A stretch of DNA of 64,000 nt from Azadirachta indica (Eukaryota > Streptophyta > Magnoliopsida > Sapindales > Meliaceae). The stretch lies in NCBI GenBank assembly GCA_022749755.1, contig CM040449.1, forward strand, positions 13,736,363-13,800,362, read 5' to 3'. Positions 22,240 through 53,640 of this stretch are shown here, piece by piece. The notes beneath the pieces were generated by a model, which was not told the origin of the DNA, ran no database searches, and saw nothing but the letters and a program-made list of their open reading frames with translations. Numbering within the stretch: the first letter of the stretch is position 1; the number at the start of each line of letters is the position of its first letter. The translations under genes were made by a program, and so were the position numbers.

Positions 22240-22460
22240 AAATTACTATAGTTAAAAAGTATATTGTGAAAAATATTAAAATATGAACTAAATATTATAA
22301 TTAAATAAAATATATTTTATTGTTATTACATAAAAGTTTTAGAATGCAAATGATAATAAACTAACTATAAACTATTAGAAATAAAAGTTAAGGGCGTTAT
22401 CCATCTATTTACTCAAATGTTAAGGGGTATTCGTCTATTAGATCAAACGTAAAGATATAT
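22240..22460 (+). repeat. dispersed repeat, copy 1
   Basis: Matches 25550-25765 in the same orientation: shared AGTATATTGTGAAAAATATT, AATTAAATAAAATATAT, AATGATAATAAA and CTATTAG-TCAAACGT blocks in order. No ORF. Probably a short non-autonomous element. Confidence 0.8.
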
Positions 22461-23195: not shown

Positions 23196-24511
23196 GGAGA
23201 AAATTTTCAAGATAATCCTAATTTATATTCAATTAACGTAAATAGTCACTTAAATTTTTTTTACCAACTTAGTCTAATATACATTTTTCAAAAAATTTTA
23301 CCCTAACTAACAATGTCTAATTTTTTTTTAATATTTTTTTCACCTTTTCCTTTCTACTAACTTTTTCTTTTTACAAAAGCTTTAATTTTTTCAAAATCTC
23401 TCCTTTCTAGAAATGGTAATGGACCAAAGTGGATATGTGTTTTTTTTTAAAAATTTTTTAACTTCTAATAAAGTGGATATGTGTTTTTTTTTTTTAATTT
23501 TTTAACTTGAAATAAAGTGAATATGTAATTTATGATATAAATGAGAATGTTTAGAATGTATTTTGGGATGAATTTTTTTATGAAATTATTGAATGCATGT
23601 TTTTAGATTATTTTGGAAAAAAAAATGCATGGATTTGGGATGAAATGGGTATGTTTCGGGTTTAAATTTTGTTAGGTGCAGAGAATATGGATATATTTGG
23701 TGGAAACTTAGCTAGAATCTGGAAAAAATTGTTGGAATAAGACTAGATTTGGAAAAATATTGAAAGGGAAAAGAAGAGAGTGATTTTTGAGTAAAACATG
23801 ATTTTTGAGGAAAGCACGATTTTTAGATAAGGTATCATTTCAAGTAAGATATAATTTTCAGGTCAGACATAGTTTTCGAGTAAGACATGGTTTTTAGGTA
23901 AGGCAAAAAAAATAACTTTATACAAAAATCACTCCCTTCCTTTCTCTTTTTTACTACGATGATTTTTCAGGTAAGGCATGATCTCATCTTACTCCAATGA
24001 TTTTTTTCAAATTCTGATCAAATTTCTACTAAATATATCTATATTATCTATGCCCAACAAAAATTAAACCTTAAATATACACAAGTCATCCCAAATCTAT
24101 GTATTTTTTCTAAAATAATCCAAAAATAGGCATTCAATAATTTTATTAAAAATTCATCTTAAAGTACATTTTAAACGTTCTCATATATGTTATAAACATT
24201 ATAAATCATATATTCATTTTGTGCTAAAAAATACAAAAAAAAATTACATATCTACTTCAATCCACACCCATTCCTATAGAAAAAAAAAAAAAAAAGATTT
24301 TGGGAGAGAGAAATTAGAAGCTTTGTAAGAAAGGAAAGATAGTAAAAAGGAAAAAGTAAAAAATATATATTAAAATGCAAAAAAATTGAAGATGATTGGT
24401 GAAGACAAAATTGTTCAAAAAATGTATGGTAGGGTAGATTGTTAAAAATTTTTTTGAAGTGACTATGTACATCAATTATATCCAAATAAGTGCTATTGTA
24501 GAAAATTTTCC
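23196..24511. mobile_element. foldback element with arms over 500 bp
   Basis: The left arm (about 23196-23775) is the reverse complement of the right arm (about 23990-24511). Ends read GGAGAAAATTTTC on the left and, reversed, GGAAAATTTTC on the right. Inner parts match too: GATGAATTTTTTTATGAAAT against GATGAATTTTTAATAAAATT reversed, and GATTTGGGATGA in both. The centre holds an imperfect 18-bp repeat (about 23791-23905). No transposase is encoded; the minus-strand frame at 24252-24527 lies in the right arm and is not a gene. Mutator-like long-TIR or foldback class is likely. Confidence 0.75.
23791..23905 (+). repeat. 18-bp imperfect repeats in the foldback loop
   Basis: About six copies of GTAAGACATGATTTTCAG-like units in a row. 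A further copy in reverse context lies near 23945-23985. Confidence 0.75.
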
Positions 24512-26689
24512 TTAAATTTTTAATCACCCAGGATGAGGAGGTGCCTTGGTTTTGGGAGTGGAGCTAAAGAAAATATAAAAAAGTTACTTGAGTTAGCGAG
24601 TTAGAAAAAAATTTTCATTTCATTTTATTTTATTTTAATTTTGGAATAAATTAGGGCACAAATCGGGATTAGGGTTTTTATTAGGGTTTTGACTCTTTCC
24701 TAACTATTTTTAACCCACCAGACATTTCTTACTTTCTCCGATTAATGTCACTTAAATTTTAAAATATGGGTGTAAATCGGAATATTATGGTTAAAAAAAG
24801 TTATATATTAATGAATATTCCCCAAAATTAGATATTTTTTACAAGAAGGCCAGATATCTCTAAAGATTATAATGATTTCTATTAAAGAAATATTTTCTAA
24901 TAAATATTATATTATAAAATAGTTAAACAATTATTTTGTCCTATATTTGTTAAATTAATATAACTAAAGTGTATATTTAATTACATCTTAAATTACTATT
25001 TTCCTTTAATTGTGTAGCAATATTTTCATCCCAAACTTAATTAAAATAATAAATTTACATATGTAATTTTAATATTTTAGTTTCTGTGATCTATTAAAGT
25101 ATTATGTTTCTAAAAATAAGTTAATACTTATTAGGACAAAAGGCAGCAACTAAATTGTTAATATTAAGCAAAGTACAGTTTGAGTTGTTATTTTCCCAAA
25201 GTTGAGGAAAGGAAATATCATTATCCCTTTCATGAAAAGGACTGTAATAATTGTCATATTTTTACATGCTTACAAAATGAAGAATACCTGTTGATTAAGA
25301 TAAGTAAAGAAATATAATATATATATATATATATATTTTAATTAAATTTTTTAATAATTAAATATCAAATTATTACTATAAAAGTGAAAGAAGAAAGTTA
25401 GAAATATTTTAACATACAAGTGTGATTTAACTTATTGTTTGAATATTTTCAATAATTGTATTTTTTAATTTTTTATTAAAATAATAAATTAAAAGATTTT
25501 ATTTAGTATTTGGTATATTGTAATAGTATTAAAATAAAAAGTAAATTGTTATAGTTAAAAGAAGTATATTGTGAAAAATATTAAAATAAAAACTAAATTA
25601 TTATAATTAAATAAAATATATATTATGTTATTACATATAAAAGTTTAGAGATATAAATGATAATAAATTAAGTGGTCAACTAATAGAAATAAAAGTCAAG
25701 AAAATATTTGTTTTTTTCTAAACATCAAGGAATATCTTTCTATTAGGTCAAACGTCAGGGTAGAGTCTTAACTTGAATTAAAAATTAAGACTGATATAAT
25801 CTTTCTAAATTTTAATTTGATCCTAAATTTTAAATTGAAGTTAAATAAATTAGATTCATCTTTAATTGTGTTAAATGAATTAATTATGTTTAATCTAGTT
25901 AAATGAGTTAAATGAGTTAAATGAGTTAAATCGTACATGTTATTATATTAATACAACTAATTTATCAAAAATTTATAATCATATCGTTTTATCCATTTAA
26001 TAAAGAAATTGTATTTATATTTGAAAATTTTAATGCAATTAATAAATTATTGAACTTGTATTATATAAATTTATTATAATTGTGTGTGACATTATTCGAA
26101 TACTACATGATAACAAAAATTGTTACTCTTGCAAGTTAGGGACTAAGTTGGTGAAATAAATAAATTTATATCTTAATTTGTTATTTTAAATAAAGACTAA
26201 AATGTTATTACACGTTTTTTTTTTTTCCCTTTTCGGTTTCCAGATTGTTTGTTACTGTAGCTACATTGGGCTTAGGTTTTAAGCCTCCAAGTGCTGCAAC
26301 GGGCCCAGTTTATTTAACCCATTCTGGTCTATGCTTGTTGATTTCTTCTCTAATTTGAACGAACATGGCATTGACTACGTGAATTTTCTCCTCTCCTTAT
26401 TTAGATTTAACCCTAAAATTGATTATGATTATGGTTGTGATTAGCTATTAATAGAAATTTATGAAAAATAATGATTGGATTGCATTTCAATAAAATTAAG
26501 TGCGATTGAGAAAAGGAAAAATGAAAAATCAAACTAATCAATTTTATTTGGTTATTCAATTATTAAAAAATTTGTCAAATTATTTTGTTTGATTTTCGGT
26601 TTTCATTATAAAATCTACAAATAAAACTAGAAAAAATCAAATTTTTTAGAATTTGTAATAAAATGATACGACTTTTTTTTATTAGTAGT
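24512..26689. other. AT-rich intergenic DNA, no gene seen
   Basis: No protein similarity in either strand. It contains a (TA)n run at about 25316-25338, the second copy of the dispersed repeat (25550-25765) and a 9-bp repeat AAATGAGTT at 25901-25927. Confidence 0.5.
25550..25765 (+). repeat. dispersed repeat, copy 2
   Basis: Direct-orientation partner of 22240-22460; see that entry for shared blocks. Confidence 0.8.
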
Positions 26690-28615
26690 TCTTTAAAAAT
26701 TTAAACATTTATTAAATTTAAATTTTAAAATATTAAAAGTACCTAAAAATATAATTAAAAAATAGAAATAAAAAAACCATATTAAATCGATTTAGAGCCC
26801 GTTTGAGATTGCTGTTGAAAGAGGTAAAAATAATTTTAAACTACCAAAAATTACTTTGGGTGTTTGAGAAAATATTTTTAAAATCACTTTCAGTAAAATC
26901 ATACCATCCTACAGCAGATTTTGAGAAGCAGAAAAAGAGTTGCTTTTTAAATTTTGATTTTGAAAAGTAATTTTATTTTTAAGTATAATACTAAATATAT
27001 CCATTTAAAATTACAAAAACCTAAAATTAACTTTACAAATTATTTTTAAATTTCAACTTTAATTGAGAAATAAAATTGTTAAATAAAAATTTTTTCTTTT
27101 CATTTTTTTATTTTTATTTTTACTTATGATATATATATTTATCTGTAAATTATTTTAAGCAAGTATATATTATATTATATTATATCATATCATATCATAT
27201 TATATTATATTAAACACTTAAAATAATTTTTATTTATTACTATATACTATTTATATTTTTAGTTATTTGCATTACTATAATATTTTTAATAATAAATTTA
27301 CTAAACACATAAAACTAATTTTCTAATTCACAACACTTTTAAAAATAAAATTTATCAAATACAAAACTGATTCTCTTTAAAGTTGATTGTTTCTATATTA
27401 TGGTATAAACAAATTTTTTAAAATCTACAATAATTCCAAACTGGCCCTTAATTGGGAATAATATATTGTTCTTTTTAGTCTAAATTTTTTAAAAATAAAA
27501 AATTTCAAGTTAGTTTGGTTTCCATTATAATGGGTATCAACCTCCATCAAAACCATGCCAGTATCGTAAATAAAATTCAAGTTAGATGTAATAATTTTGG
27601 TTGACATAAAAAAAAAAGAAAATATTGGTATGTATTTACTTATTAGTTATATTAAGATATTTTTAAAAAGTTTTTAAACAAAAATTAATAACCAAACATC
27701 TTTTAAATATTTGAATAATTTTATTCCAACTTGATTTGAGAAAAATAAACAAACCTTAATAAAATATTATATTATTTTAATTAAATATATTATTTTTCTT
27801 ATGATGAATGTCTTATAAACTATTATACAGTATAATATTGGACAATAAAATAAATACAATATCGAAATGCAGTTTTAACTTTTAACAAACTCAAATCTTT
27901 CTTTCTTTTTTTTTTTATTTAATAGTGCAATTGCAATAAAATTACTAATATTGTAGATCAATAATCTTGAGTGTTCAAAATTGTAATAAATTAAATTTAC
28001 ATAAATTATGATAAATAAAGTATTTTCAAGGAAATTTTATAATTTTATGAAATTATTTCATATAGAGTATAAAGAAGAATTTTAGTTATATAAAGTGGCC
28101 ATTCACATCATACTTTTTATGTTATGTTTTTAAAGTTACATAGAAATATAAAATTGTAACATATACTAAAAGAATCACTGTCACTATGCTAGGAAAATAA
28201 TCCAAAATTATTTACAATTATTTAAAGTTTGGAATATATTCTTTTTAAAAACCACCATGCATTTATATATACATATATCAAGCTAATATAATGAATAATA
28301 AAATACTCACTAATAAATATAATAAAATTATATCTCATGATAAAAGTAGTAATAAAATTATGATTATTGATACATAGTACACATTAATTTAACATACAAT
28401 TAAATAAGCAAAGATCTTATACTACTTCTAAATGTTGTCAAACATTCCATACTCTCTATAATAACGAAATTTGTCATCGAACGTTCCATACTCCCTATAA
28501 TAATGAAATCCGTTGTTAAAGACATTTAGATCTATACATAAATAAAATTTTTAGAATACTTAAGACTATCCACTTAATTATCATAAACTTAAACCTTCAA
28601 GTACACCAGCCAAAT
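26690..28615. repeat. segmental duplication, copy 1 (with MITE)
   Basis: Apart from the 653-bp insertion at 26795-27447 this stretch aligns collinearly with 36045-37305. Shared markers include TCCATCAAAACCATGCCA, CTTATGATGRATGTCTTATA, CACTATGCTAGGAAAATAAT and CATAAACTTAAACCTTC. No gene is recognisable in either copy. It ends about 815 bases before the DC1 start codon. Confidence 0.9.
26795..27447. mobile_element. PIF/Harbinger-like MITE, 653 bp
   Basis: Ends are GAGCCCGTTTGAGATTG on the left and, reversed, GGGCCAGTTTGGAATTATTG on the right. TTA flanks both sides (26792-26794 and 27448-27450). The paralogous site at 36141-36160 has a single TTA and no insert, so the 3-bp duplication is seen directly. 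TTA target duplication and GGGCC-GTTTGG termini fit PIF/Harbinger (Tourist-like) MITEs. No ORF inside. A (ATATT)n-like run lies at 27168-27211. Confidence 0.85.
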
Positions 28616-29430
28616 ATGTATATATTATTCAGAAATTAGTAAATTTTTAATTAATCGATTATGGTATTATTAATTCTTTAATTTATAAATTACAGCTGGC
28701 ACGTGTCAACTTCATATCTACTGCATTTTTGTAATTGTATTGATTGTCTCACGATCCATCTTATAATTTTTCCTTCTTCTACCGCTTGTATTTTAAAAGT
28801 CATATTAATTTGCTAATTAATATATAATTCCATTGCCGGCCAGAGCCTTCCTTCCACCTAATAAAAAATCTGACCAACTCTAATTCATTCAATATGATCA
28901 TCAATAACATTTTATAATTCCACAAGTCTTTGAAAAATAATAAAATGGGTAGAACTTACTATGGATATCTAACGACTTTATACCTTCATAAAACGTATGA
29001 TCTAAATTTGGCTTGTTATTATATTAATATAAAACAACAAATTACTTAAATGATAATTGAACTTTATCATTCACTAGATGAATTACGTACACATCATCAC
29101 ACGACACGTTATTTGGGAAAGATTTTCTCGTGTTTCATAAAAGGAAATATAATAAATTGGCAAGTTCAAGACAAATACAGGTTTGAGTAGAGTTTTTTTT
29201 GGAGCAACTAAGCAAAGTCGTTTTTGATTATTCAAAAACGCTAGTGTCAATATTGGCGGCAGAACATGTTAATTTCTGAGTAGGTAATATGTGTTATTTT
29301 CTGATAAAATATTGGATGCTTCTGATCTGATCCCAGTGCAATTGTATGTGCAGGAGGAGGGACGATGACGAGGCACTGGACAAAGATAAACACAAAGCGA
29401 GAATGATCAAGGCCAAACCGACAGCGAGAG
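28616..29430 (+). promoter_or_regulatory. upstream region of the DC1 gene
   Basis: AT-rich upstream DNA. A G-box/ABRE core CACGTG with the extension CACGTGTC is at 28700-28707, a class of element bound by bZIP and bHLH factors. An acceptor-like TGTATGTGCAG at 29343-29353 could end a leader intron. No clear TATA box was chosen. Function is inference only. Confidence 0.35.
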
Positions 29431-30799
29431 ATGGGGAATAGTTACTCTGAAGATCAACCAGAAAACAATAGTTATTGTGAAGATCGACCAGAAAACAGAG
29501 TCACATGGGATGAGTTTAATAGCTATGGCTCATCCGGTGACTTGTTGACAGAAATCCTACACCCTTTTCATCGCCATTGTTTGAGACTCCAGAATCTTCC
29601 TTCTGGCGTTTTTCATCGTCCCAGATGTAATGTCTGTCTCTTCTATATCCAGGAAAGGTCAAGGTTCTATGAATGTAATTATTGTCGTTTTCAATTGCAT
29701 CTCCAATGCGCATCTATGAAGCCAACAGTGAAGTATGAGGGTCATAATCATCTTCTTGTTCTAGTAGAGAACATGTATTGGCGAGGTTATTGCCACGAAT
29801 GCGCTTCCGAAATTAGGGGTACTTTCTTTGTCCGATGTGTCCCCTGTCGCCTTAATTTTCACATCCAATGTAGCACTTTCTCGTCACCACCAACCATGAA
29901 TGTGCCTGAACATCACCCACATCCTCTCATACTTAACAATGAAACAGAGCTTGTCGAAGCTGATTCTGAAGCTCATTCTGATCATCTACTTCATTGTGAC
30001 GCCTGCAAAAAGGAGATAAAGCCTAGACATCACTTCTACTCTTGTACTGATTGCGATTACTCCGCTCATTTGAGGTGTATTATTACAGAGATACAACTGG
30101 ACAAGAGAAAGAGGCTGAAGCATTTTAGCCACGATCACACCTTGTATCTCCATGATCAGGAAGAGGAAAATGGTCAAACTTTTTGCCAGGCATGCCAGAA
30201 AGATCATATGGATGGATGGCGCAGTATATGGTTGCGATCCGTGCCAATTTTATCTTCACAAATCATGCACTGAGTTACCCCAAGAGATGCATCATCCTTT
30301 CCACCAACATGCTCTCTTTCTTGTGAAACCTTCTGGAGGAAATGAATTTACACGCCAATTCCACGCTTGTGGTAGGGATTGTTATGGCTTGACCTACATA
30401 TGTCGTGAATTTTGCGACTTTTGTTTGGATTTAGGCTGCGCAGCACTACGGCCTTCAATAAAAGTTGAAGGTCATAAGCATCTTCTTACTTTCATCGACA
30501 AGTTATATGACATCCAGAAATGCACAGCCGACACCGAAATGTCCTCCCCAGGACCGTCCTGTTTGCGCTGCGTGAGATGCAACTTCGACTTTGAAATGGT
30601 GTCTCTACTACCAAAATCTATTACACATAGAAGTCACGCACATACCCTCAGCCTCAAGGATGGTGTTTGTGCTTTTGTTGAACTTGATCCTAACGAGTAT
30701 CGTTGTGATGTTTGCAACACAAAAATAGATATTCGGGAACGTGTTTATTGCTGTGCAGAATGTCGCTTTGTATTAGATTTTCAATGCGTGATTTCTGAG
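29431..30799 (+). CDS. DC1 gene exon 1 (modules 1-7)
   Basis: About 456 codons. Module openings include HPFHRHCLRL, GHNHLLVLVE, HHPHPLILN, SHDHTLYLHD, HPFHQHALFLV, GHKHLLTFIDKLYDI and SHAHTLSLKDG. The frame set by ATG 29431 is left at 30210-30217, where GGATGGAT stands in place of a single GGAT; downstream the frame opened at 30152 carries the rest (GCDPCQFYLHKSC onward). The donor is GAG|GTGTGT at 30799/30800. In the fifth module the spacing of Cys residues (CREFCDFC) is unusual. Confidence 0.8.
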
Positions 30800-31003
30800 G
30801 TGTGTCCTTTTTATTTGATTTTGAGAAGATCTATAAAACAAATAATCCTTAAATACGTCAGAAAATATATTTCAATATGCGATTGTTTTATTGAGTTTCG
30901 TTTTCAAACATTTTACTTTGATTAAACTACGATACAATATATAAAGCATCATCTTGATTTGGGTTAATTAATGGTCTATCCTGATCTCAAAAATGCTTCA
31001 TAG

Positions 31004-31052
31004 GTACTACTTTCTGTAACGGCAAAGACAATTTCCGAGGCTGGTGTTGAAG
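31004..31052 (+). CDS. DC1 gene exon 2 (linker)
   Basis: A 49-base exon between an acceptor TTCATAG and a donor AAG|GTAATA. It reads VLLSVTAKTISEAGVE plus one base, and joins exon 3 in phase. It has no Cys or His and is a linker. Confidence 0.65.
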
Positions 31053-31274
31053 GTAATATTGATTAATTAGCATTTCATAATAGTAATCAACAAAAAATCA
31101 AAAGTGGCCAAGCACCTTGCTTGAAGTAGATTCATTAATTTTTTCGATATTTTTTGTATGTCTCCTAGCATATTAAGGTTAATCGTTGACTATATAACAT
31201 TACTCTCACTGTTATATCACTTGCCAGGTTAATTACTCACGATCTTTAACAAAAAGTTTAAATACATATTTCAG

Positions 31275-33084
31275 GGACACACCCAGTTGAAGGAGAAAAG
31301 ACTGAAAACTATTTCCTTCACGACCATCCATTAACATTATGTGAGATTAATGATAGCGAAATTGTCTGTCATGGTTGTGGAAGCCCTTTCTCGGATGAGT
31401 GCTACACTTGTAGCAACTGCGGGTTTTATCCTGGCCCATGCATTGCTTGCAATGAAGAACCTTCAGGTAGTTTCTATATTTGTAAATTATGTTGGCCCAA
31501 ATCTCCTCTCTTCCACCAATCATGTGTCGAATTGCCCCAAGAGATTGAAATTTCTTATCACCCACATGACTCTCTCCACCTTGCAGAAGGATTTGAGGAT
31601 GACTTGCAATGTGTGATTTTTGTTATCGAAAGGGTGGATTCTCCGGCCGCTGTAAGTTCTGCTGTAACACGTGCAACTTCCAAATTCATTTTGCATGTGC
31701 TGCAAAGCTCATCAAATACCATGAAGGTAGAGAACAAGTAAACCATTGTAGTCACTCCCATAACTTAACCCACCTAGAGTTACGTATTGTGGATTGTAGG
31801 ATGTGCAAAAAAAAGATCCCCAGGTTATGCTTGTGCTCCATGTGAGTTTTATATGCACAACTCGTGTTTTGATTTGCCCCAAGAAATCCAACACCCATTT
31901 CATCAACTCCATTGCCTGACACTCCAAACCTTTTACATGACAAAATGTTGTGATGCCTGCGGCCACAAAATTAAGAGCTCCATGTGCTATACATGCAATA
32001 ACTGTAATTTTGACTTGCATCTTGAATGTGCATCTCTGAAGCCAATCATAAAGTACGAAGGTCATGAGCATCTTCTTATTCTAGTAGAGAATATGTCCAA
32101 CCAAGGTGAATGTGAAGCGTGTGGTGTAGAAATTCGGGTACTTTCTATGCCCGTTGTGTAGGATGTAACATCAATTTTCACATCCAATGTGGCCCAGTGT
32201 CATTACCACCAACGGTTATGGATAAACATCACAAACATCCTCTCTCCCTCAGTACTAAAACAGTACTCGTGGATGATAATTCTGATTGTGATCCACGGCT
32301 TTGTGACGCCTGCAGCAAAGAAAGAAATCCAGAGCATCCCTTTTATTATTGTACTGAATGTGACTACTCTGCTCATGCAAGTTGTGTAGTCACTGAGGTA
32401 CAATTAATTCAGAGAGAGAAATTGAGACATTGTAGCCATCGACATTTCATGTTTCTTCGGGAAGACAAGATCAAGAATGATGATGTTATTTGCTATGCCT
32501 GTGATAAACTTATAGAGGGAGCGGTATATAGTTGTGATCCCTGCAAACTTTATATGCATAAATCATGCGGTGCACTGCCAAAAGAGATTAAACATCCCTT
32601 TCACGAACATCCTCTTACTCTCCCAGAACCTTATTCTAGAAAAGAACGGGAATGCAGTGCTTGTTACAAAGATTGTTTTGGCTTCACTTACCGTTGCAAT
32701 GATTGTGACTTCGACTTGGATCTTGACTGCGCTTCACTACTACCTTCAATAGAATATAGTGGCCATAAGCACGTTCTTACTTTCTTCGAGAAGCTATATG
32801 ACATACCAAAATGCATAGCTTGCAGTTTTACCTCTTCTTACGTCTCCTATTTACGTTGTGTGACCTGCAACTTCAACATTCATCTCTGGTGTTCGCCATT
32901 GCCAGAAACTATTAGACACAACAGCCACCAGGATCATCCCCTCAGCCTATTGGATAGTTTTGTTGATGATAACTACGATAACCAAATTTGTGATGTTTGT
33001 GAACAACGAAGAGACGCTCAAGAATGTGTTTATTATTGTGCAGAATGCGACTTTATATCAGAATTTAACTGCGCAACTTTTGAG
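31275..33084 (+). CDS. DC1 gene exon 3 (modules 8-18), three frameshifts
   Basis: Starts after TTTCAG at 31274. About 11 modules, from DHPLTLCEIND to QICDVCEQRRDAQ. The frame changes three times: near 31598-31612 before CDFCYRKGGFSG, near 31809-31821 in an A-run followed by CCCC before YACAPCEFYMHNSC, and at 32136-32139 where one G is missing in comparison with the same codon of exon 1 (GAAATTAGGGGTACT). From 32119 to 33084 the frame is open. The last seven modules repeat the seven of exon 1 in the same order. Donor GAG|GTATGC. Confidence 0.75.
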
Positions 33085-33451
33085 GTATGCCGACTAAAAT
33101 TTAGAAAGATAAAATCAATTATGAGATGATGTGTAGTACTAGTTCTATTTTGTCCAGTTTTCAAACAGAATATAATTCTAGTATTAGTTACTAAAATCAT
33201 TATTTTTGATTTAGTGGCCCCTAAGCAATAGCTTGGATGGTTTGGAGCATCGCTTGATGCTCCTAAACCATCCTGAATTCTATTAACAATAGAGGATAAA
33301 AGTTTGTTGCTTCGTGAGTGAGGTTTCTCGCTCTCATCCTAAACCCTTTTTCAAAAAAAATAGTTAATTTAATGATCGAATACATATCTTGAAATACTTC
33401 AGAACTGCATGAATTTATAATCTTTCTAACTAATTTGGTTTTGGTTGATAG

Positions 33452-41341: not shown

Positions 41342-41346
41342 ATGAC

Positions 41347-42758
41347 TGATGAATGTTTAAAAGTGTAGGTTTATCAAGAGAAATATTATGATTCACACTT
41401 AATAATATTCTTCTATTCCCCAATAATGAAGCATATTCCTTTATATTGAATTGTAAAACCTGAATTAGACTAAATAGTTGGTTTTGCGCAGGTTTCGTAT
41501 AATGAGCGTATCTTTCAATCCAAATTATCAATTGATACAATTCTTGGGCTGTACAAACATAAACTCATCATTTCACAACTTTGTAAGCTAAAAGTTGGAC
41601 CAGTTCGAGCAATTAATGGGACGAAATTGGGCTTCAACAGAACTCAAGCGCATCTTTGAACCAGCCAACATGCTTCTGTATTTGGGCCGTATCTCCTTAA
41701 ATATGTAACAAAAAATTTTATGGTTAAGTGATCTAGAAAGCTGAGAACGGGATCTAAATAGTTTATGTTTTGTACTTTCTCAAATTTCAACTGGTCCATT
41801 ACCAAAAAGAGCTATCATTTTAGAAGGGCGGTGGAGAAATGTGACTTGAATATCTCTGCCTATTTTCAACACAACTCACGGTCTAAAATAGAAATAAGAG
41901 CGAGATATAGACCATTAGAAAGATGAGTCATCCACCTACAACTTTGAAGAAGGATGTTTTACGAAATTCGGTGGTTTTCATGCTCAAAGATATGTTGGAA
42001 GTTGGTAGAGCGTGATTAATTGGAAATTGACCAAATTATATTCACACATGTGGAATGTCTTTTGTTTTACCTATATAAAGGAAGACGTGGAAGTGAGAAA
42101 GGGATCAGTTTTGTTTCCATTTTTATTTTCTTGTTGTAATTTGAACTTCAATTAAATGATGTATTTCTAATTTCGTAATTAGAGCTAAGAGTGAACTTTT
42201 GATGATTTTATAGTTTTGTTTTTTGATCCTTTGTTTTATTCTTCATTGTTAATCTTTTTATTGATTGAGTACTATATTTTGCAAGTGATTTTAAATTGTT
42301 AGAAATCTTGATTCATTGTTAACAAATGGTACATTGAATGCTTGGATATTTTCTACATATCAAGAGTAAGGCAACTTATAATTTTTCATCATCAACTAAA
42401 AGGTAAGTCTTTTGATTTCTTTGTGCTTAAATGTTTTGTTTTCATCATCCAATTAAGATCACTTCTTTTGATTTTTAATTCTATTTTTCTTTAAAAAAAA
42501 AGGATCAAGAATAAATTCTATACAAATCATTAAAATGGATCCCTAATGCCCTAATATATAATAATATTGAATTTAAATGTGACAATAAGCAAATTCACTC
42601 CATTTCTTATAATATTGGAATATTTGGACTTGTAATATTTAGACTTTTGGACTTGTAGACTTAACATAACATATTCTCTATGGACCGACACTCGAACTTC
42701 CGAACTTTATTACTTGAAACAACCTATATTTGGGAGTTACAACCTTTAAGTTATAGCA
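41347..42758 (+). repeat. Athila-like element 5' LTR
   Basis: TGATGAATG...AAGTTATAGCA, 1412 bases. The last 820 or so match the 3' LTR at over 90 per cent by eye. The first 590 bases have no counterpart in the 3' LTR. Confidence 0.85.
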
Positions 42759-42764
42759 AGTTTT

Positions 42765-42783
42765 TGGCGCCGTTGCCGAGAAG
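42765..42783 (+). promoter_or_regulatory. primer binding site, tRNA-Asp type
   Basis: TGGCGCCGTTGCCGAGAAG follows the LTR after six bases. Its first 14 bases are complementary to the 3' end of plant tRNA-Asp(GTC), the usual primer of Athila-like elements. Confidence 0.85.
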
Positions 42784-43124
42784 TACGGTTTGTATAAAGT
42801 TTACTAGTTCTTATTTAATTTTCTTTTACTTACTTTAACCTCTAACTCTAACTCTAATTTTAACATTTTTTTTTATTTACTTGTTGTTATTTATTTTTAT
42901 TGGGAGGCTTAGCCGTCCATTTATATTTACATTATGGTTGGTTCTACATATACAACCTAATTTTTGTTGTTCATTTTGTTCATGGTAAGCTTTGCTACCT
43001 TTCTTAATTTTTTTTTCTATTACGTATTGTGTTGTTATTTTCATTTACAATAATTTTATTAAGAGGAAGGTTATACCACCTCTTTTCTTTTTTATTTGTT
43101 TTATTGTGCTAACATTTTATTTTA

Positions 43125-44968
43125 TTGTATTTTACTTTATTGTGTTTTATTATTATTATTATTTTCATGTTTGGATGGTATCATGATCCTCATTCTCATC
43201 GATTGGTGAAAGGTAATTTTGAAACCTCCTTTGGAAATTTGTTTGATTCATCTTCAAACTCACACACAACTAATACTATGCCTGAAAATGAAAGTATACA
43301 TGGAGAAAATGAAAATCATCATGTTCGAACTATGCGTGAATATTTGCAACCTCCTCGAAATTCATCTCCTTCATGCTTTATTTTTCCGCTTAATGCAAAT
43401 AACTTCAGATTTAAGCCCGGTATGATTCCTTTACTTCCTAATTTCCATGGCTTAGAGTTTGAGAGTCCTTATTTGCATTTGAAAGAATTTGAGGAAGTAT
43501 GTGCCACATTTATAGATCAAACATGTAGTGAAGAAATAATTAAGCTAAAATTGTTTCCTTTTTCTTTAAAAGATAAAGCAAAAACATGGCTTAATTCATT
43601 AAGATCTAAATCTATAGGCACATGACAAGAAATGCAAACCAAGTTTTTAAAGTAATTTTTTCCAATACATAAAACGAATGCTTTCAAGAGACAAATTCAA
43701 AATTTTTGTCAAAAAGGAAATGAAACCTATTTTCAATGTTTGGCAAGATTTAAAAACTTGTTGAATTCATGCCCACACCATGGTTTTGAAAAATGGCGTA
43801 CGATAAGTTTCTTTTATGAAGGGTTAACACTAAAAACAAAACAATTTGTTGAAACAATATGTAATGGTGAATTTTTAGACAAAGACCCAGAAGAAACTTT
43901 AGAGTATTTAGATCATTTAGTTGAGAACTCTCAATCCTGGCAAACCACTAATTCCTCTGAAAATTCAATTAGATCTAATATGACTAGTTCTAGTGGGGGT
44001 AAATATAATTTGAGTCAAAAAGATGATTTAAGTGCTAGAATTACAAATTTAACGAGAAAGTTGAAGCCATGGAATTAAGGAAAGTTAAAGAGGTCAAATC
44101 TGTGCATAATGATGAAATTTGTGAAATTTGTGAAATTTGTGAAGTCATGGGACATTCCACTCAAGATTGTCCAAATATTCCTATTTTCAAAGAAGTGTTG
44201 CATGACCAAGCAAATTCTATGAATTCCTTCAAAAAGCCTTTTTCCTCTAATTCTCCATATTCTGAAACATACAATCCTGAATGGAGAAATCACCCAAATT
44301 TTAGTTGGAAAAATGATAATCATACCCATCTACCACCTCAAAGACCTTCAAATTTTCCACCATACCATTCACCACATTTGAAAACTTTTGAGGAAACGTT
44401 GCAAACATTCATGCAAAGAAAAACAAGCATAAACAATCAAACATCACAAGCCATTAATGATATCAAGAATACACTTTCAACATTGACCTCAGCTTTGCGT
44501 AGTCAAGAGAAAGGTAAATTTCCTGCTCAACCACAACCAAATCCAGCGGGTCAATTTCATGTAAGTGATTCTAACTCAAATGGCACACAACACGAGAATG
44601 CCAACTCCATCACTACTCTCCAAAGTGGTAAGGTCATTGATAAAACCATTTCTTTGAAAGAGATTGAACCTAAAGAATCATCAAAATTAGTGAGTGAGGA
44701 AAGTAATGTTGAACCTAAGATGTGTGATGTTAAAAAATGCCCTATCCCTGCTCCTTTTCCTCAAATATTGCAACCAATTCAAAAGTTGAACCAAAATTCT
44801 GAAATTTTTGAACTTTTTAAGCAAGTCAAAATTAACATTCCTTTGTTAGATGCAATTAAGCAAGTTCCTTCTTATGCCAAATTTTTGAAAGATTTATGCA
44901 CTGTTAAAAGGAAGCTTAATGTTCAAAAGAAAGCATTTTTAACTGAGAATGTTAGTTCGATTATTTAA
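43125..44968 (+). pseudogene. Athila-like gag with Cys-rich knuckle
   Basis: The frame 43125-43625 continues past TGA at 43623 and TAA near 43653 to 44078, then shifts to the frame of 44069. Recognisable words are the gag opening MREYLQPPRNSSPSCF, MIPLLPNFHGLEFE and the capsid segment LKEFEEVCATF. Further on lie a zinc-knuckle-like segment (CEVMGHSTQDCP, about 44143-44178, after a short EIC repeat) and a long Pro/Asn/Ser-rich tail. The true start is uncertain: the first ATGs precede an AT-rich low-complexity reading, so MPENES at about 43279 is a reasonable alternative. It would form the capsid. Confidence 0.8.
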
Positions 44969-45967
44969 CATAACACTCCACCAAAATATAAAGATCCTGG
45001 TTCTCCTACCATTTCTTGTGTAATTGGAAACTTTAGGATAAACCATGCTTTACTTGATCTTGGTGCAAGTGTTAATTTGTTGCCATATTCAGTGTATGAG
45101 CAATTAGATTTAGGTGAGCTTAAACCTACTTCTACAACACTTCAACTTGCTGATCGTTCTGTGAAAATACCACGAGTAATACTTGAAGATATGTTAGTCC
45201 AAGTAGATAAATTTTACTTTCCTGTAGATTTTATTGTCTTAGACACACAACCTATTTCTAGCTCAAGCACCCAAATTTCTGTCATATTAGAACGTCCATT
45301 TCTTGCTACATCTAATGCAATAATCAATTGTAGAAATGGAGTTCTAAAATTATCCTTTGGAAACATGACATTGGAAATGAATGTATTTAATATTTGCAAG
45401 CAACCTAGTGAAAATGATGACATGCATGAAGTTAGTTATATTGAGGAACTCGTTCATGACTACTTTAATGTTTCATCTTTTTCTGACCCCTTGAATGCTT
45501 GTTTAAATAGTTGCAATGATTTCAATTTTGATAAAAATTTTGAAGTGTCTCATATTTATTCTCTTTTAAAATCTTCTCACGTTTTGCAAGTTAATGGATG
45601 GAGATCAAAATTTGAAGACTTACCTCAACGTGCTGATAAACCGATGCCATCAAGTGTTCAACCACCAAAACTTAAATCGAAACCATTACCATCTGACCTC
45701 AAGTATGCTTTCTTGGGTGCTAATGAAACTTTTCCGATGATAATTTCTTCTAAACTCAGTGCTCTTCAAGAATGTAAGTTGCTCGAAATTCTAAGATTGC
45801 ATAAACATGCTTTAGGATGGATAATAGCTGATATAAAAGGAATTAATCCTTTGATTTGCACACATAAGATATATTTGGAAGATAATGCCAAATCATCTAG
45901 ACAAATGCAACGTAGGCTAAATCCTAATATGAAAGAGGTAGTGAGAAATGAAATTCTCAACTTTTAG
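44969..45967 (+). pseudogene. Athila-like protease and linker to reverse transcriptase
   Basis: Continuous with the gag frame of 44069 except for a TAA at 44966. The aspartic-protease motif is LLDLGASVNLLP (about 45050-45085); D-L-G-A is the usual variant in Athila-like elements. The flap/second-lobe zone includes VDFIVLD and ILERPFLAT (45225-45310). The frame ends at TAG 45965, where a one-base shift leads into reverse transcriptase. Confidence 0.8.
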
Positions 45968-47410
45968 ATGTGGGGATCATTTATCCTATTTCTGATAGCA
46001 CATGGGTAAGTTCTACACAAGTTGTACCTAAGAAATCTGGAGTTACTGTAGTCAAAAATGAAAATAATGAATTAATTCCAAGTAGAACAATTATTTGCTG
46101 GAGAATGTGCATTGACTATAGGAAACTCAATTCAATGACTAGAAAAGACCATTTCCCGTTACCATTCATGGATCAAATGTTAGAAAAGGTAGCTGAACAT
46201 GCATTTTATTGTTTCCTAGATGGGTATTCTAGGTATAACCAAATTGAAATTGCACCTGAAGACCAAGAAAAGATCACTTTCACTTGCCCATTTGGAACTT
46301 TTGCATATAGAAGGATGCCATTTGGATTGTGTAATGCACCAACTACATTTCAAAGATGTATGCTTAGTATTTTTAGTGATATAGTTGAACGATTTCTTAA
46401 AATTTTCATGGATGATTTTTCTGTTTTTGGTGATTCATTTGAGGATTGCTTATCTAACTTGGAAAAAGTTTTGATTAGGTGTGAAGAAAAGAATCTTGTG
46501 CTTAATTGTGAAAAATGTTATTTCATGGTCACAAATGGTATTGTGCTTGGTCACATTGTCTCATCAAAAAGAATTGAAGTAGATAAATCTAAAATTGAAT
46601 TAATTGCCAATTTACTTGTTCCTAAGTCTGTTAAAGATGTTAGATCATTTTTAGGACATGCTGGTTTTTATAAGAGATTTATCAAAGATTTTAATGTTAT
46701 ATCAAGACCATTGTGCAATCTCTTATTAAAAGATGCTCTCTTTGAGTGGACTCAGTCATGTCAAGAAGTTTTTGTCAAACTTAAAACCTTGCTAACATCT
46801 GCTCCTATCATGCAGCCTCCAAATTGGACTTTGCCTTTTGAAATCATGTGCAATGCTAGCGATTATACTATTGGAGCTGTTTTAGGACAACGAAAGGACA
46901 AGAAACCCTATGTGATTTACTATGCTAGTAAAACCTTAAATAGTGCTCAAATGAATTATTCTACCACTGAAAAGGAATTACTTGCAGTAGTATTTGCATT
47001 GGATAAATTTGGATCTTATCTTGTTGGCTCACCCATTGTGATTTTTAGTGATCATGCAGCATTAAAATATCTTCTCTCATCCTAAACCTAGATTGATTAG
47101 GTGGATTCTACTATTTCAAGAATTTGATCTCACAATTCAAGACAAAAAATGAGTACAAAATGTGGTTGCTGATCACTTGTCAAGACTTATGTTTGAAGAA
47201 TCGATTGAGACAACACTAATTAATGACAATTTTCCTGATGAGCAACTTTTCAATGTTTCTATTTTACCTTGGTTTGCTGATATTGTCAATTTTCTTGTTA
47301 CAGATCAAATGCCAAATCATTGGAATGCTCAAAATAAAAAGAAATTTTTAAGGGAGGTACGTAATTTTTTTTGGGATGATCCATATCTTTTCAAATATTG
47401 CCCTAACTAA
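45968..47410 (+). pseudogene. Athila-like reverse transcriptase and RNase H
   Basis: An open frame of about 370 codons to 47085 covers the whole polymerase. Motifs in order are QVVPKKSG, MCIDYRKLN, FPLPFMDQMLE, FLDGYSRYNQI, the family Y/F-x-DD box as FMDDFSVFG (46405-46431), KCYFMV, LGHIVS and SFLGHAGFYKRFI. RNase H follows with CNASDYTIGAVLGQ, TEKELLAVVFA and SDHAALKYL. Near 47075 the frame shifts; RNase H ends in LTIQDK and NVVADHLSRL (47160-47190). It is nearly intact and only lightly damaged. Confidence 0.9.
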
Positions 47411-48564
47411 ATTATAAGGAGATGTGTACCTAACAATAAAATTCAAAATATCATTTCTTTTTGTCATTCCAAAGCATGTGGTGGTCATTTTTCTTCAAAA
47501 AAAACTGCTGCGAAAATATTGTAATGTGGATTTTATTGGCTCACCTTCTTTAAAGACACAAATACATTTTGTAAAACATGTGACCGTTATCAAAAATTAG
47601 GTAGAATAACTCGTAGAAACATGATGCCATTAAATCCTATTTTAGTCATTGAAATATTTGATTGTTGGGGTATTAATTTTATGGGTCCTTTTCCATTTTC
47701 TTTTGGGTATCAATACATTTTAGTTGGAGTTGACTACGTTTCAAAATGGGTAAAGGCAATTTCTTGCAAAAATAATGATCATAAAATTGTTTTGAAATTT
47801 TTAAAAGAAAACATTTTTTCCAGATTTGGAGTACCTCGAGCCATAATAAGTGATGGAGGTTTACATTTTTGTAATAAGCCTTTTGAGAATTTAATGAAAA
47901 ACCATGGAATTACACATAAAGTGTCAACCCCTTATCACCCACAAACAAGTGGACAAGTTGAACTTGCCAATAGAGAAATAAAACATATTTTGGAAAAAAC
48001 GATAAACCCGAATCGTAAGGATTGGTCTTTAAGACTAACCGATGCACTTTGGCTTATCGAACTGCTTTTAAATCATCACTTGGCATGTCTCCTTATAGAC
48101 TTGTTTTTGGAAAGGCTTGTCACCTACCAGTGGAATTAGAACATAAAGCTTTTTGGGCCATTAAAATGCTTAATTTTGACTTAGATAAAGCAAGATCATT
48201 GAGAAAACTCCAAATAGATGAACTCGAAGAAATTAGGAATGAAGCATACGAGAATTCTAGAATTTACAAAGAGAAAATGAAGGTGTTTCATGATAAACAT
48301 ATCATTAGAAAATCATTTGAACCTTCACAAAAAGTTCTTTTGTATGATTCAAGACTGCATCTATTTCCTGGCAAATTTCGCTTAAAATGGACAGGTCCTT
48401 TCATTGTTAAGAAGGTTTACCCACATGGCGCTGTTGAAATTGGGAACCCCAAAAATGGTAATGTTTTTAAAGTTAATGGATACCGTTTAAAGCCATTCTT
48501 TGAGAATTTTCTAAGCGAATTAGAGTTTATCACTTTGAATGAACCTATTTACAACACTAGATGA
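47411..48564 (+). pseudogene. Athila-like integrase
   Basis: The HHCC zinc domain lies at about 47455-47600 (CHSKACGGHF, then CKTCDRY) with one TAA between. The catalytic core opens in 47621-48139: D in VDYVSKWV (about 47729), D in ISDGGLHF (about 47850), E in SGQVELANRE (about 47962). A one-base shift near 48050 leads to 48022-48564, with [20 protein letters not shown] and the C-terminal beta domain ([26 protein letters not shown]). All three catalytic acids are present. Confidence 0.88.
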
Positions 48565-48623
48565 TTTTTTTTGTATATACATTACTTGTTTTCTCGTGTT
48601 ATTAATTTTATTGATTCCATTGT

Positions 48624-49319
48624 TTGTTTTTAGTTACTTTCCCAGTCAAGTGGCGGATAACGGTACTCCGTGACTCTTCAAGTCGGTTCTTTCAGTTGCT
48701 CAAAATTATTGATACTATGTTTTTTCTCTCACTTCTTTTTCTGTTCTTTTCTTTCATTATGGATGTCATTCTTTCTATATTGCAAACATATTTTCCTTCT
48801 TTTCCTAAGGATGTTCTACGAAAAATGTACCAAATTAGGTGTGCAAGATTAAGAATGCTTATGCAAAAAGGTATTCCTGAAGATGTGCGATAGATAATTG
48901 AAGCAAAAGTACGTTTAGTAGGTGAGTTTTCTGATTCATTTGTTTCACGCATGCCTAATTTAGGTAAGAGCTCTTTTGCAAAGAAACGAAGAGCGAAAAG
49001 GTTACAAGTGTGTCACAATTGTGCACGTTCAATCTGTAACAAGCGATGTCGTTCTCTAAACATGGTGTCTACTAATAAAGAAGATAAAATTAAATTCATC
49101 AAGGATGGACTGAGTAAGGAGTCTTTAGATAATATCTTATTGACTCTTGAGACGCATCCTAGTGGATATGTGCAACGTGAAATTCTCAATTTGTATACAT
49201 TATTTCAAAAAGAACGTGATCGTTATAGTCTTGGGAATCTGACTTTAAAAGACCCTGTTTGCCAATTTGTAAGAAAATTGGATGGGAAGTCCAATTCTAG
49301 ACCCATAAAGGGCGTTTAA
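48624..49319 (+). CDS. extra ORF of unknown function, Cys-rich motif, one internal stop
   Basis: A single frame of 231 codons, sense to the element and just after integrase, interrupted once by TAG at 48894. An ATG at 48718 opens a strongly hydrophobic segment (MFFLSLLFLFFSFIM), a possible signal peptide or membrane anchor. It is followed by a basic helix (KMYQIRCARLRMLMQ), a basic patch (FAKKRRAKRLQ) and a C-x2-C-x4-C-x3-C motif (CHNCARSICNKRC, about 49012-49050). The tail is helical and charged. I recognise no family. The position is that of the env-like or accessory ORF in Athila elements, but no similarity to those is seen. It is preceded by a T-rich tract ending in AG at 48632-48633, which could act as a splice acceptor. 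Confidence 0.6.
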
Positions 49320-49611
49320 GCCGTTACTGGACGTAAAATCAGAGGAAGATGTGATCCACAATCACAACTATCTATAAATATTTACTTTTAGCCGTCATTG
49401 TTGAAATTTTTATGTTTTAGATTCCTATATTAGCTGTTATCTTTGATATTTTTACATTTTTAAATTTTAACTTTTATGACAACAGCTGGCTTACCTCTAT
49501 TGGTTTCATTAATGCATTCTCTTTAAGTCGTATAAATGCAGGACCTTACTTCTTTATTTTCATACAAAATTTGAATCACTGACGAGGGTAAAAGACTGCA
49601 AAAAAAAAAAA
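49320..49611 (+). other. spacer between the two extra ORFs
   Basis: AT-rich, no ORF. It ends in a run of A immediately before the LOG start codon at 49612. Confidence 0.5.
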
Positions 49612-50270
49612 ATGGAAGGAACTTCTATTTATCAATTTAAAACTATTTGTGTTTTTTGTAGATCAAGCCTTGGGAAAGGTGAAGAGTTTGTAAAAGCAGT
49701 GGACAACCTACGTCGAATTTTAGCTAAGCGAAAACTTAACCTAGTGTATGGAGGAGGTAGCCTTGGGTTAATGGGGTGTGTGTCAACTGCCGCACATACG
49801 CACATATAGGAGGAAGTGAAGTCATAGGTATCATACCAAAGGCTTTATCTGCAGGTAACATAACTGGCAAAATAGTTAAAGAAGAACTAATGGTCTCAAC
49901 AATGCATGAAAGAATTGCTAAAATGCTTAATTCTGCAGATACTTTTATTGTCTTACCAGGTGGTTTTGGGACCTTAGAAGAAATTTTTCAAATTGCATCT
50001 TGGGCACAACTCACCGTTCATCAAAAACCCATAGGATTGTTAAATATTAATGGTTTTTTTAACAAGTTGTTGTCTTTTCTTGATCATGTTGTAAAACAGA
50101 ATTTTATTTCACAGATGGCTCGCAAACTCCTCATTTCTGCTCTGACTGCTAATGACTTAATCAATCAGTTGCAGAACTTTGTCCATGAACCAGATCCAAC
50201 AATGGCACGATTATAATGGTCAAGTGAAAGCAGTAAAAAGCGAAAGCTGGATTTGTCGCTTCATTTGTAA
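49612..50270 (+). pseudogene. LOG-like: LOG-like cytokinin riboside 5'-monophosphate phosphoribohydrolase carried by a retrotransposon, frameshifted
   Basis: ATG 49612 opens TICVFCRSSLGKG (the family's C-V-F-C-G/R-S-S start) and YGGGSLGLMG (49747-49776), the first nucleotide-binding loop. The frame ends at TAG 49807. The second part is open in the +2 frame to 50216: IGIIPKAL, MHER (49902-49913, with the conserved Arg) and PGGFGTLEE (49956-49982), the signature holding the catalytic Glu; then IASWAQL, KPIGLLN and FIS. Total length of about 200 residues fits the family, whose members release active cytokinin bases from their nucleotides in the cytosol. The two halves are out of frame by a TA dinucleotide in ATATA at 49804-49808. 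A TAA at 50214 is followed by 17 more in-frame codons (WSSESSKKRKLDLSLHL). There are no introns, unlike host LOG genes. Confidence 0.88.
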
Positions 50271-51322
50271 CTTTTCTTATCTCTTTTTTACCACTCATTG
50301 CATTTTGTTATTTTTTTTCTTTAGTTATTTTTGCTTAAGTTTATTTCAGATTTTACTTGTGTTTTAATAACTACTATTTCAGGTAATATTCTCTATACTG
50401 TATCTTTTTACATTTAAACATTGGGGACAATGTTGCAATCTGGTTGGGGGGAGTATAGTCGACATAAGTAACCATTTTTTTTTATATAAAACTAAAAAGA
50501 AAAATTAGATTCATAATTTGTAAGGATGGTAGAGTAAGGAGTAATCTTACTCCTGAGATACATTTTAGTAGATATGCATTATCATTTGTTTTGATTTTTG
50601 GATTTCATAACAAAGAATTTATCATTCACTTTCTTTTGAATTGATCAAATATACGAACTCTCACATCATCATCACATAATAAATTCTACTCAGATACTCA
50701 ATCAGTAAAATATTTATAAACCATCTTTCACACACACACTTTGATACATGATTGTGGATGACATATTGAAATTTTACAATATTTGATCTCTTTAATTTTG
50801 TCAAAGGTAGCAACTAAGGGTTCAAAAAAAAATCTCCAAAAAAAAAAAATAAAAAAAATAGTTAAAAACAAAATAAATAAGTAAAAATTCTAATCAAAAC
50901 TTTTACTTAGTAACCGGACTTCTTATCTAATCAGCAGTGAATGTTCGCGTAAAACGGTAAAGTTTTGATATAAATAAGTTCATAGCCTTAACTCGAGTAA
51001 TTAAGCCCGTAGGAGTGTTTTAATACCTAATACCCTAAAGCCAACTAGTCTGGGAGTTATTGGCCCAAAGCTCGCTACATAGGTTAGGTTATGCACAAAG
51101 AAAAAAAAAATGGAGATAGAAATAATCTTTGCCCAAAGAAGTTTACCTTGACAAAATTTAGAACCGATGTTGTTTGATTCTAATTAAGTCCCATAATATG
51201 TATTAGTTACAAAAGCACAAAAAGAAGGTTTATTAATAATTTGACTGATAAGTATTTGACACGTATATAGTAAATTTTTAAGCGAGAGTTTGTTTATTTT
51301 GAGAAGATAAAAAGGAAAAGAA
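50271..51322 (+). other. Athila-like element 3' untranslated region
   Basis: No ORF. It includes ACATTGGGGACAATGTTGC and TTGGGGGGAGT (50421-50453), wording common in the 3' region of such gypsy elements, and GCCCGTAGGAGTGTTTTAAT (51006-51025). A purine tract GAGAAGATAAAAAGGAAAAG at 51301-51320 directly precedes the 3' LTR and is the likely plus-strand primer. Confidence 0.65.
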
Positions 51323-52182
51323 TGATTTTTACTTTGAATGTAAATTCTATAAATCAACCTACAACTTTGAAGAAGGATGTTTTACAAAATTCGGTGGTTT
51401 TCATGGTCAAAGATATGTTGGAAGTTGGTAAAGCGTAATTAATTGAAAATTGACCAAATTATGTTCACACATGTAGAATGTCTTTTGTTTTACTTATATA
51501 AAGGAAGACGTGGAAGTGAGAAAGGGATCAGTTTTGTTTCCATTTTTATTTTCTTGTTGTAATTTGAACTTTAATTAAATGATGTATTTCTAATTTCGTA
51601 ATTAGGGTTAAGGGTGAACTTTTGATGATTTTATAGTTTTATTCTTTGATCCTTTGTTTTGTTCTTCATTGTTAATCTTTTTATTGATTGAGTACTATAT
51701 TTTGCAAGTGATTTTGAATTGTTAGAAATCTTGATTCATTGTTAACAAATGGTACATTGAATGTTTGGATATTTTCTACATATCAAGAGTAAGGCAACTT
51801 ATAGTTTTTCACCATCAACTAAAAAGTAAGTCTTTTGATTTCTTTGTGCTTAAATATTTTGTTTTCATCATCCAATTAAGATCACTTCTTTTGATTCTTA
51901 ATTCTATTTTTCTTTAAAAAAAAAAGGATCAAGAATAAGTTCTATACAAATCATTAAAATGGATCCCTAATACCCTAATATATAATAATATTGAATTTAA
52001 ATTTGACAATAAGCAAATTCACTCTATTTCTTATAATATTGGAATATTTGGACTTGTAATATTTAGACTTTTAGACTTGTGGACTTAATATAACATATTC
52101 TCTGTGGACCGACACTCGAACTTCCGAACTTTATTACTTGAGACAACCTATACTTGAGAGTTACAACCTTTAAGTTGTAGCA
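51323..52182 (+). repeat. Athila-like element 3' LTR, internally deleted
   Basis: TGATTTTTACTTTG...TTGTAGCA, 860 bases. From 51353 it matches 41937-42758 of the 5' LTR. About 550 bases near the 5' side of the LTR are missing. Confidence 0.85.
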
Positions 52183-52187
52183 ATGAC

Positions 52188-53640
52188 ATGCAATGAAGTA
52201 CGCCATCTTAGAAAATCTATCAACAACCACAAAAACTGAGTCTCTCCCCCTTTTTGTCCTAAGGTAATCCCAAAATAAAATTCATAAAAATATCGATTCA
52301 ATATGCACTAGGAATAGTAAGTAGTATATATAATCCATGTGGTTGCTCCCTAAACTTAGCTTGCCTATAATTAATGCATCTTGCACAAACCCTTTTTATG
52401 TCACATTTCATGTACGGCCAAAAGAAATGTTCATGCAATATGTCTAAAGTTTTAGTTATGCCAAAGCGATCCATCAAACCACCACCATATGCTTCTCGAA
52501 CAAGTAACTCACACAAAAATGAATATGGATCACACAATTTATTTTTTCGAAATAGAAAACTATCATGCCAATAGAACTTCCCACATGCTCTTTTAGTACA
52601 ATTTTTAAACAAGTCATAAAAGTCAGAATTCGCTGCATGCAACTCTTTAATATACTCAAATCCAAACAATTTAGCATAAAGGGTTCAAAGTATAGCGTAC
52701 TTGCGTGACAGTGCATCAGCAACTATATTTCTTTGCCTTGTTTATATTTAATTATATAAAGAAATGTCTCAATGAACTCCACACATTTGGCATGATGTTT
52801 ACTTAATTTGTGCAGCGCCTTTAAATGTTTCAAAGATTCATGATCCGTATAAATCTCAAACTCTTTGGGCCAAAGGTAATGTTGCTAAGTCTCTAGAGTT
52901 CAAACCAATACATACAATTCTTTGTCGTAAGTGGGATAATTTAGAGCTGCCTCACTTAGTTTCTAACTAAAGTACGTAATTGGTCTTCCTTCTTGCATCA
53001 ATACACCTTCGATTTCTATACTTGAAGCATCACACTCAGTCTCAAATATTTTAGCAAAGTTAGGTAAAATAAGTAAATGTGCATTAGTCAATTTTTCTTT
53101 GATGAGTTTGAATACCTTTTCTTGCTCCTTTCCCCACTTAAATGGAATGTTCTTCTAGATGACTTCGGTTAAGAGTGCAGCTATACTACTAAAATCTCGA
53201 ACAAAGCGCCAATAAAAACTGGCTAATCCATGAAAGCTTTTTACTTGATTTGTCAAAATAGGCGTTGGTCATTCTTGAATTGCCTTCACCTTCTCTTCAT
53301 CGACCTCAATCCCTTTAACACTTACAACAAAATCAAGAAACATAATCTTATCCGTACAAAATGTACATTTTTTAAAATTAGTAAATAGCCTTTCTTTTCT
53401 TAAAACCTCTAAAACAAATCTTAAATATTCAACATAAACATCCAAGTTTTTGCTATAAATCAAGATATCATCAAAGTAGACTATTACAAATTTGCCAATG
53501 AAAGTACGCAAAATATAATTTATAAGTCTCATAAAATTACTAGATGCATTAGTTAGTCCAAAAGGCATAATGAACCATACAAATCATATTTTGTTTTAAA
53601 TGTAGTTTTACATTCATCGCCTTCTTTCATCCTAATTTGA
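52188..53640 (-). pseudogene. outer gypsy reverse transcriptase, RNase H and integrase start
   Basis: On the minus strand from about 53640: the polymerase word [17 protein letters not shown], then VYFDDILIYSKN with the catalytic Asp pair (about 53450-53490), KCTFCTDKIMFLDFVVS and so on to 53269. RNase H wording continues with stops to about 52750 (for example [15 protein letters not shown] text). The integrase zinc domain is open at 52669-52298 (LHEHFFWPYMK, CARCINYRQAKF). The catalytic core start ([12 protein letters not shown]) lies at about 52195-52240, right at the insertion point of the nested element. Confidence 0.85.

Follow-up and report, generated by a model that had tools for sequence, protein, structure and literature searches.

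A LOG-type, putatively cytokinin-activating gene carried as an accessory gene by a Ty3-type LTR retrotransposon family in neem

The window considered here, 64,000 nucleotides of the neem genome (Azadirachta indica, assembly GCA_022749755.1, contig CM040449.1, positions 13,736,363 to 13,800,362 of the forward strand), contains a Ty3-type LTR retrotransposon at 41347–52182, the features of which are collected in Table 1. Its membership in the Ty3/gypsy group is evident from paired LTRs with a flanking 5-bp target duplication and from a pol region in the Ty3 order of protease, reverse transcriptase (RT), RNase H, and integrase, read from matches to PF13650, PF00078, PF17919/PF17917, and PF00665. 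The protease match (PF13650, E = 6.8e-4) lies under its curated cut-off, and the gag region at 43113–44968 gives no Pfam gag match. We take the element to belong to the Athila lineage, based on the wording of its gag and RT and on a primer binding site that is presumably of the tRNA-Asp type; the stretch in the interval between LOG and the LTR is likewise taken to be an Athila-like motif. Copies whose 3′ LTR is complete have a polypurine tract like GGTTGGGGGGTG directly 5′ of it. A preliminary description of this DNA had fixed the limits of the element by its matching LTRs and the ATGAC duplication, and both borders stand, but the 3′ LTR is truncated, without its initial 584 bases. The two LTRs of this copy are 95.7% identical over 831 bases.

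Table 1 Features of the LOG-bearing retrotransposon, in positions of the window
Feature	Position	Strand	Basis
Target site duplication ATGAC, 5′ side	41342–41346	+	Flank comparison
5′ LTR, 1412 bp, TGATGAAT...ATAGCA	41347–42758	+	92.9% identity to the whole 1398-bp LTR of another copy
Probable primer binding site TGGCGCCGTTGCCG	42765–42778	+	Similar motif after the 5′ LTR in other copies
gag region, several broken frames	43113–44968	+	ORFs
pol (protease, RT, RNase H, integrase), several broken frames	44969–48564	+	Pfam
Extra ORF 1, carlavirus-type nucleic-acid-binding-protein-like	48759–49319	+	PF05515, PF01623
Extra ORF 2, LOG-type cytokinin riboside monophosphate phosphoribohydrolase	49612–50270	+	Motifs, Pfam; broken here
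Stretch around TTGGGGACAATG...GGTTGGGGGGAG, LOG–LTR interval	50415–50456	+	Sequence
3′ LTR, first 584 bp missing	51353–52182	+	LTR comparison
Target site duplication ATGAC, 3′ side	52183–52187	+	Flank comparison

Elsewhere in the window, remains of another retroelement, with integrase zinc-binding and RT matches, adjoin the LOG-bearing element on the minus strand (52298–53583). Pieces with C1/DC1 domains on the plus strand (29407–33129) are probably ordinary plant genes or gene fragments, and a very AT-rich block occupies 20001–28000, with a G+C content of ~0.20 vs ~0.24–0.39 in the rest of the window.

The LOG reading of the preliminary description, recognised by the motifs YGGGSLGLMG, MHER, and PGGFGTLEE, is borne out in both content and position: all three motifs are present at 49612–50216, between integrase and the 3′ LTR. 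The reading is also intronless and in the sense of gag-pol, as described, but in this copy it is not one open frame. It is split over two frames (49513–49809 and 49761–50216), contains 8 bases absent from the reference copy, and is interrupted by a stop at codon 199 in the numbering of other copies, whose frame would extend to ~50270 in the window. The window copy of LOG is dead because of these extra bases and the early stop. Its 3′ part matches PF03641 with E = 2.2e-38.

Searches for further copies covered the plant assembly (280.8 Mb, 21 contigs). LOG DNA returned 208 first-look candidates, of which the best 40, the window among them, were scored, all at least 92% identical; these 40 places are filled by cargo copies, and a host LOG gene is not expected among them. 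Among the places listed or read, 78 distinct LOG places, window included, lie on 13 numbered contigs. Twenty of the 39 other scored copies, chosen by their LOG, were read with ~3 kb on each side and their 5′ regions. The order of extra ORF 1, spacer, LOG, and 3′ stretch is identical in all 20. Integrase stands in front of the extra ORFs in 17 (absent or cut in L009, L015, and L026), and the second half of the LTR is in place behind LOG in 17 as well (missing in L018, partial in L021, inverted in L027). Both LTR ends are readable in 15 of the 20 copies, with 12 perfect 5-bp duplications and three in which 4 of 5 bases agree. Because L010 and L011 share flanks, the 12 perfect duplications represent 11 distinct insertions, or 12 counting the window. 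The flanks common to L010/L011, L012/L018, and L019/L023 mark segmental duplications that carry the element.

A LOG-independent check started from the ten top-scoring places for the neighbouring ORF in a PF05515 scan of the genome; the window and one copy read before were among them, and the other eight were new. LOG is present in all eight, two of them incomplete (L054 and L055). Altogether, LOG accompanies the neighbouring ORF in all 26 places examined of 42, window included, and accompanies integrase in all 22 examined of 39 other integrase-picked places, so that no LOG-less copy occurs among the examined places of either kind. Even L059, fetched as an integrase place without a listed LOG, has both extra ORFs. 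Integrase DNA gives 325 first-look candidates vs about 207 for LOG, and LOG-less relatives may therefore exist.

The Ty3-type family thus carries LOG as a sense accessory gene in the slot between integrase and the 3′ LTR in every copy examined, and LOG was aboard before the examined copies spread. The anatomical part of the explanation, a LOG accessory gene behind a viral-type ORF in an element family, is practically certain. The preliminary description had called LOG cargo of the element, not a neighbour, from one copy, and had proposed co-occurrence in many insertions as a check; in this genome LOG indeed recurs in the same slot of every further copy read, with its order kept and with target duplications of its own at 11 other distinct insertions. 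A misassembly, or a lone chance insertion beside the element, has a negligible probability. Both were rejected on the recurring order, on the distinct perfect target duplications, and on the stretch at 49320–49611, where the preliminary description had considered a misjoin: this stretch has 206 first-look candidates, and the 40 scored are all at least 95% identical.

A separate observation concerns contig C7, where an older subfamily has 17 LOG places at ~6.68–6.93 Mb, all on one strand and with 10 of 16 gaps at ~12–13 kb. This spacing suggests a large tandem array that includes the element.

The LOG frame is open over 216 codons, free of gap, insertion, and stop, in nine of 21 copies (window included), or in seven of 18 once three segmental duplicates are removed; the remaining 12 of 21 contain stops, gaps, or insertions. 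An intact LOG protein is 51% identical over 193 residues, ungapped, to Arabidopsis At2g37210, which we take to be LOG3. One intact LOG passes the PF03641 cut-off (139.2 bits vs 27), and TIGR00730 matches all nine intact copies, the first with 181.7 bits vs a cut-off of 96.35. The NCBIfam equivalog NF058542, from a library made for prokaryote annotation and scored here without a known plant LOG as control, gives the first intact LOG 122.6 bits, below its cut-off of 300 bits; it also matches the other eight, with a best E of 1.4e-36. R98 and, in the PGGxGTxxE motif, G114, G117, T118, and E121 are invariant in all nine intact copies, R98 and E121 presumably being the catalytic residues, and changes occur at P113 in L016 and at G115 in L018. 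A structure model of LOG has a mean pLDDT of 34, too low to be of use.

The interval between integrase and LOG had been described without mention of a second conserved ORF, which begins at 48759. This extra ORF 1 comprises 182 codons in intact copies, and a motif-based scan finds it whole in 10 of the 20 further copies; both extra ORFs are complete in four of the 20 (L012, L016, L018, and L025, of which L012 and L018 share flanks). The window version has one TAG at 48891–48893 and an altered end, and its part at 48894–49319 matches PF05515 (E = 6.4e-7) and PF01623 (E = 1.3e-5). Of 15 intact rows, 13 were aligned, with the duplicates L018 and L049 left out and with L051 and L052 nearly identical to each other. 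All 13 match both PF05515 and PF01623 at E ≤ 0.01, and the best PF05515 match, to a viral nucleic-acid-binding family, reaches E = 5.9e-9 over profile positions 89–208. The scores of three copies are all above both gathering cut-offs, and none of six shuffled versions of the ORF matches either family. PF05515 is found at 42 places in the genome, all above the cut-off, and in none of 14 control genomes. A fold model of the ORF, likewise too poor to be of use (mean pLDDT 49), retrieves no viral structure at E ≤ 0.001, and its profile reaches a best E of 0.33 against solved structures. We infer that extra ORF 1 derives from a flexivirus-like RNA virus, although transfer in the reverse direction would also be possible. 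Literature searches, by title and the start of the abstract, returned no paper describing this viral-type ORF in retrotransposons.

The spacer between the two extra ORFs offers two candidate signals ahead of LOG, TATAAAT at 49373 (mean conservation 0.958; exact in 21 of 27 copies) and ACAACAG at 49479 (mean conservation 0.947). The conservation of these motifs is barely above the spacer mean of 0.941 across the 27 copies, and they were rejected as evidence of a LOG promoter or splice signal for this reason.

Ten near full-length LTR pairs are 91.9–98.8% identical, which, at a substitution rate of 1.3e-8 per site and year, places the insertions very roughly ~0.5 to 3 million years ago. More diverged LOG copies exist, 87–93% identical to one young LOG in the six measured, and LOG was therefore present earlier. 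L022, a young insertion with 98.8% identity between its LTRs, has its LOG interrupted by a stop, a point against the accessory-gene reading discussed below. In the spacer of 26 copies, C-to-T and G-to-A changes predominate in the mutation spectrum, as expected of methylated, silenced copies.

Comparison of dN/dS among cargo copies yields near-neutral values for LOG. The mean pairwise dN/dS of young copies is 0.94 for LOG (n = 18), 0.71 for the neighbouring ORF (n = 18), and 0.53 for the integrase end (n = 15), and a larger set gives 0.88 (n = 25), 0.72 (n = 26), and 0.65 (n = 22), respectively. Neutral simulation with the observed spectrum returns LOG medians of 0.87 and 0.83 at two divergences. 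The segmental duplicates L011, L018, and L023 were excluded from the 18-copy sets, and L009, L015, and L026 from the 15-copy integrase set; for the pair counts made with the larger set, the tree, and the simulation, L049 and L052 were left out in addition. The 'young' comparison set of ten copies that accompanied the simulation was the analyst's choice. The ratio of nonsynonymous to synonymous changes in LOG is similar for shared and single changes, at 38:13 vs 96:27, and 131:47, 73:23, and 24:12 by frequency class in 30 copies, with an expectation of 0.71:0.24; the badly fitting row L054 was excluded from these class counts and kept in the 25-copy LOG set. Nine older or more diverged copies have LOG dN/dS values of 0.44–0.98, not clearly below neutral, seven of the nine comparisons falling at 0.44–0.72. 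In one old copy among them, the value is 0.55 for LOG (P = 0.06 in the neutral simulation) and 0.49 for the neighbouring ORF. The copy tree is star-like, and most changes therefore arose after insertion; with divergence mostly on terminal branches, the dN/dS test is weak. The dN/dS values give no evidence for selection on LOG, nor evidence of its absence.

On the reading preferred here, LOG would be an accessory gene, possibly one that increases cytokinin locally. Its lack of introns and its ungapped match to a plant LOG suggest that it originated from a spliced plant LOG mRNA, which would have been copied into element RNA or cDNA by template switching. Upon transcription of the element, LOG protein would be translated from an RNA that is either spliced or separate, and would convert cytokinin riboside monophosphate to free cytokinin inside the expressing cell. 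The cytokinin could then keep cells dividing or meristematic, and dividing cells would provide the element with a larger number of replicating nuclei and improve its odds of entering the germ line. The functional part of this scheme, in which LOG protein is made and raises local cytokinin to the benefit of the element, is predicted from sequence and is put forward tentatively, as somewhat doubtful. The explanation as a whole, combining the accessory gene, host-mRNA capture, and a local cytokinin benefit, has a probability of about 0.42 in our estimation.

An almost equal rival to this accessory-gene reading is that an ancestral master element gained LOG by chance and was amplified, leaving LOG a neutral passenger without effect and free to drift. 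The neutral level of dN/dS in young copies points this way, as do the damaged frames in more than half of the copies and the position of LOG as the least constrained of the three coding stretches by point estimate. Against it, the selection test has low power on a star-like tree, the values of older copies tend to fall below neutral, a complete frame of 216 codons survives in several independent insertions, and elements of Citrus and poplar are likewise reported to have LOG-type domains (PMC9289625). The spectrum dominated by C-to-T and G-to-A changes would suit a different role, in which silenced copies would supply LOG-derived small RNAs that affect host LOG genes in trans, the protein being irrelevant; retention of the full-length frame in nine of 21 copies speaks against such regulatory cargo, which we regard as quite unlikely.

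The viral look of the neighbouring ORF raises the question of whether LOG itself might be of bacterial or viral rather than plant origin. Its best solved structures are two Arabidopsis proteins, at 219 and 192 bits vs 171 for the next, and a scan of prokaryote genomes, capable of detecting close relatives only, confirmed none of 35 pattern matches, making a non-plant source highly improbable. A more ambitious extension of the accessory-gene reading would treat the two extra ORFs as a host-manipulation pair, in which a virus-type protein that binds nucleic acids and might affect silencing or transcription, and an enzyme that activates cytokinin, would be kept together by the element and would jointly promote division of the cells in which it replicates. 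Such a pair would parallel gall-forming agents, which likewise promote host cell division; we consider it unlikely.

In this large family, a whole gene whose biochemical type can be recognised is retained next to a viral-type ORF, which makes the question of why plant retroelements keep extra ORFs directly testable. Neem and Citrus are members of one plant order, so that shared descent of their LOG-bearing elements is plausible; if the Citrus elements are of the same lineage, the LOG cargo has been retained since the two plant families parted.

The preliminary description knew of no LOG cargo in such elements, a claim that does not survive comparison with the literature. In a screen of 121 angiosperm genomes, the YgdH domain, which is found in LOG proteins, is reported in LTR-element consensus sequences of Citrus sinensis and C. 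clementina and, with a laxer filter, of Populus trichocarpa, a result described there as in line with Steinbauerova et al. 2011 (PMC9289625). These elements resemble the neem family in having a LOG-type domain inside plant Ty3/gypsy elements, but the accessible text gives the domain name alone, and the neem family adds position, companion ORF, intactness, and copy-by-copy evidence. In the available portions of two surveys of plant elements, YgdH is not mentioned in one (PMC6317226), and neither YgdH nor LONELY GUY in the other (PMC11963269). The cargo claim of the preliminary description is right and stronger than could be known from one copy, whereas its novelty claim is weaker; the present analysis adds the viral-type ORF next to LOG, evidence of fixation from individual copies, and LOG frames that are intact.

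According to the available part of a review of plant LTR elements, extra ORFs that transduction can explain are confined to one or a few element copies, whereas those retained across all or most copies are either env-like or, as for most antisense ones, of unknown origin (PMC7264820). Env-like ORFs share the slot and orientation of LOG and likewise occur in all or most copies, but LOG is not env-like. Bs1 of maize is an LTR element with transduced host gene sequence (PMC7264820). It contains pieces of several host genes, in contrast to the one complete gene carried by the large neem family. Bs1 is also said to be of low copy number. A further parallel comes from Ty3/gypsy elements of Phalaenopsis, in which an ORF for an AlkB-type RNA demethylase is described as fixed and active in vitro (PMC9289625). 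Like LOG, this is a cellular-type enzyme gene kept as an extra ORF, there through the radiation of a subfamily. The two differ in substrate, AlkB having shown its activity in vitro on RNA, whereas LOG is predicted to act on a hormone precursor.
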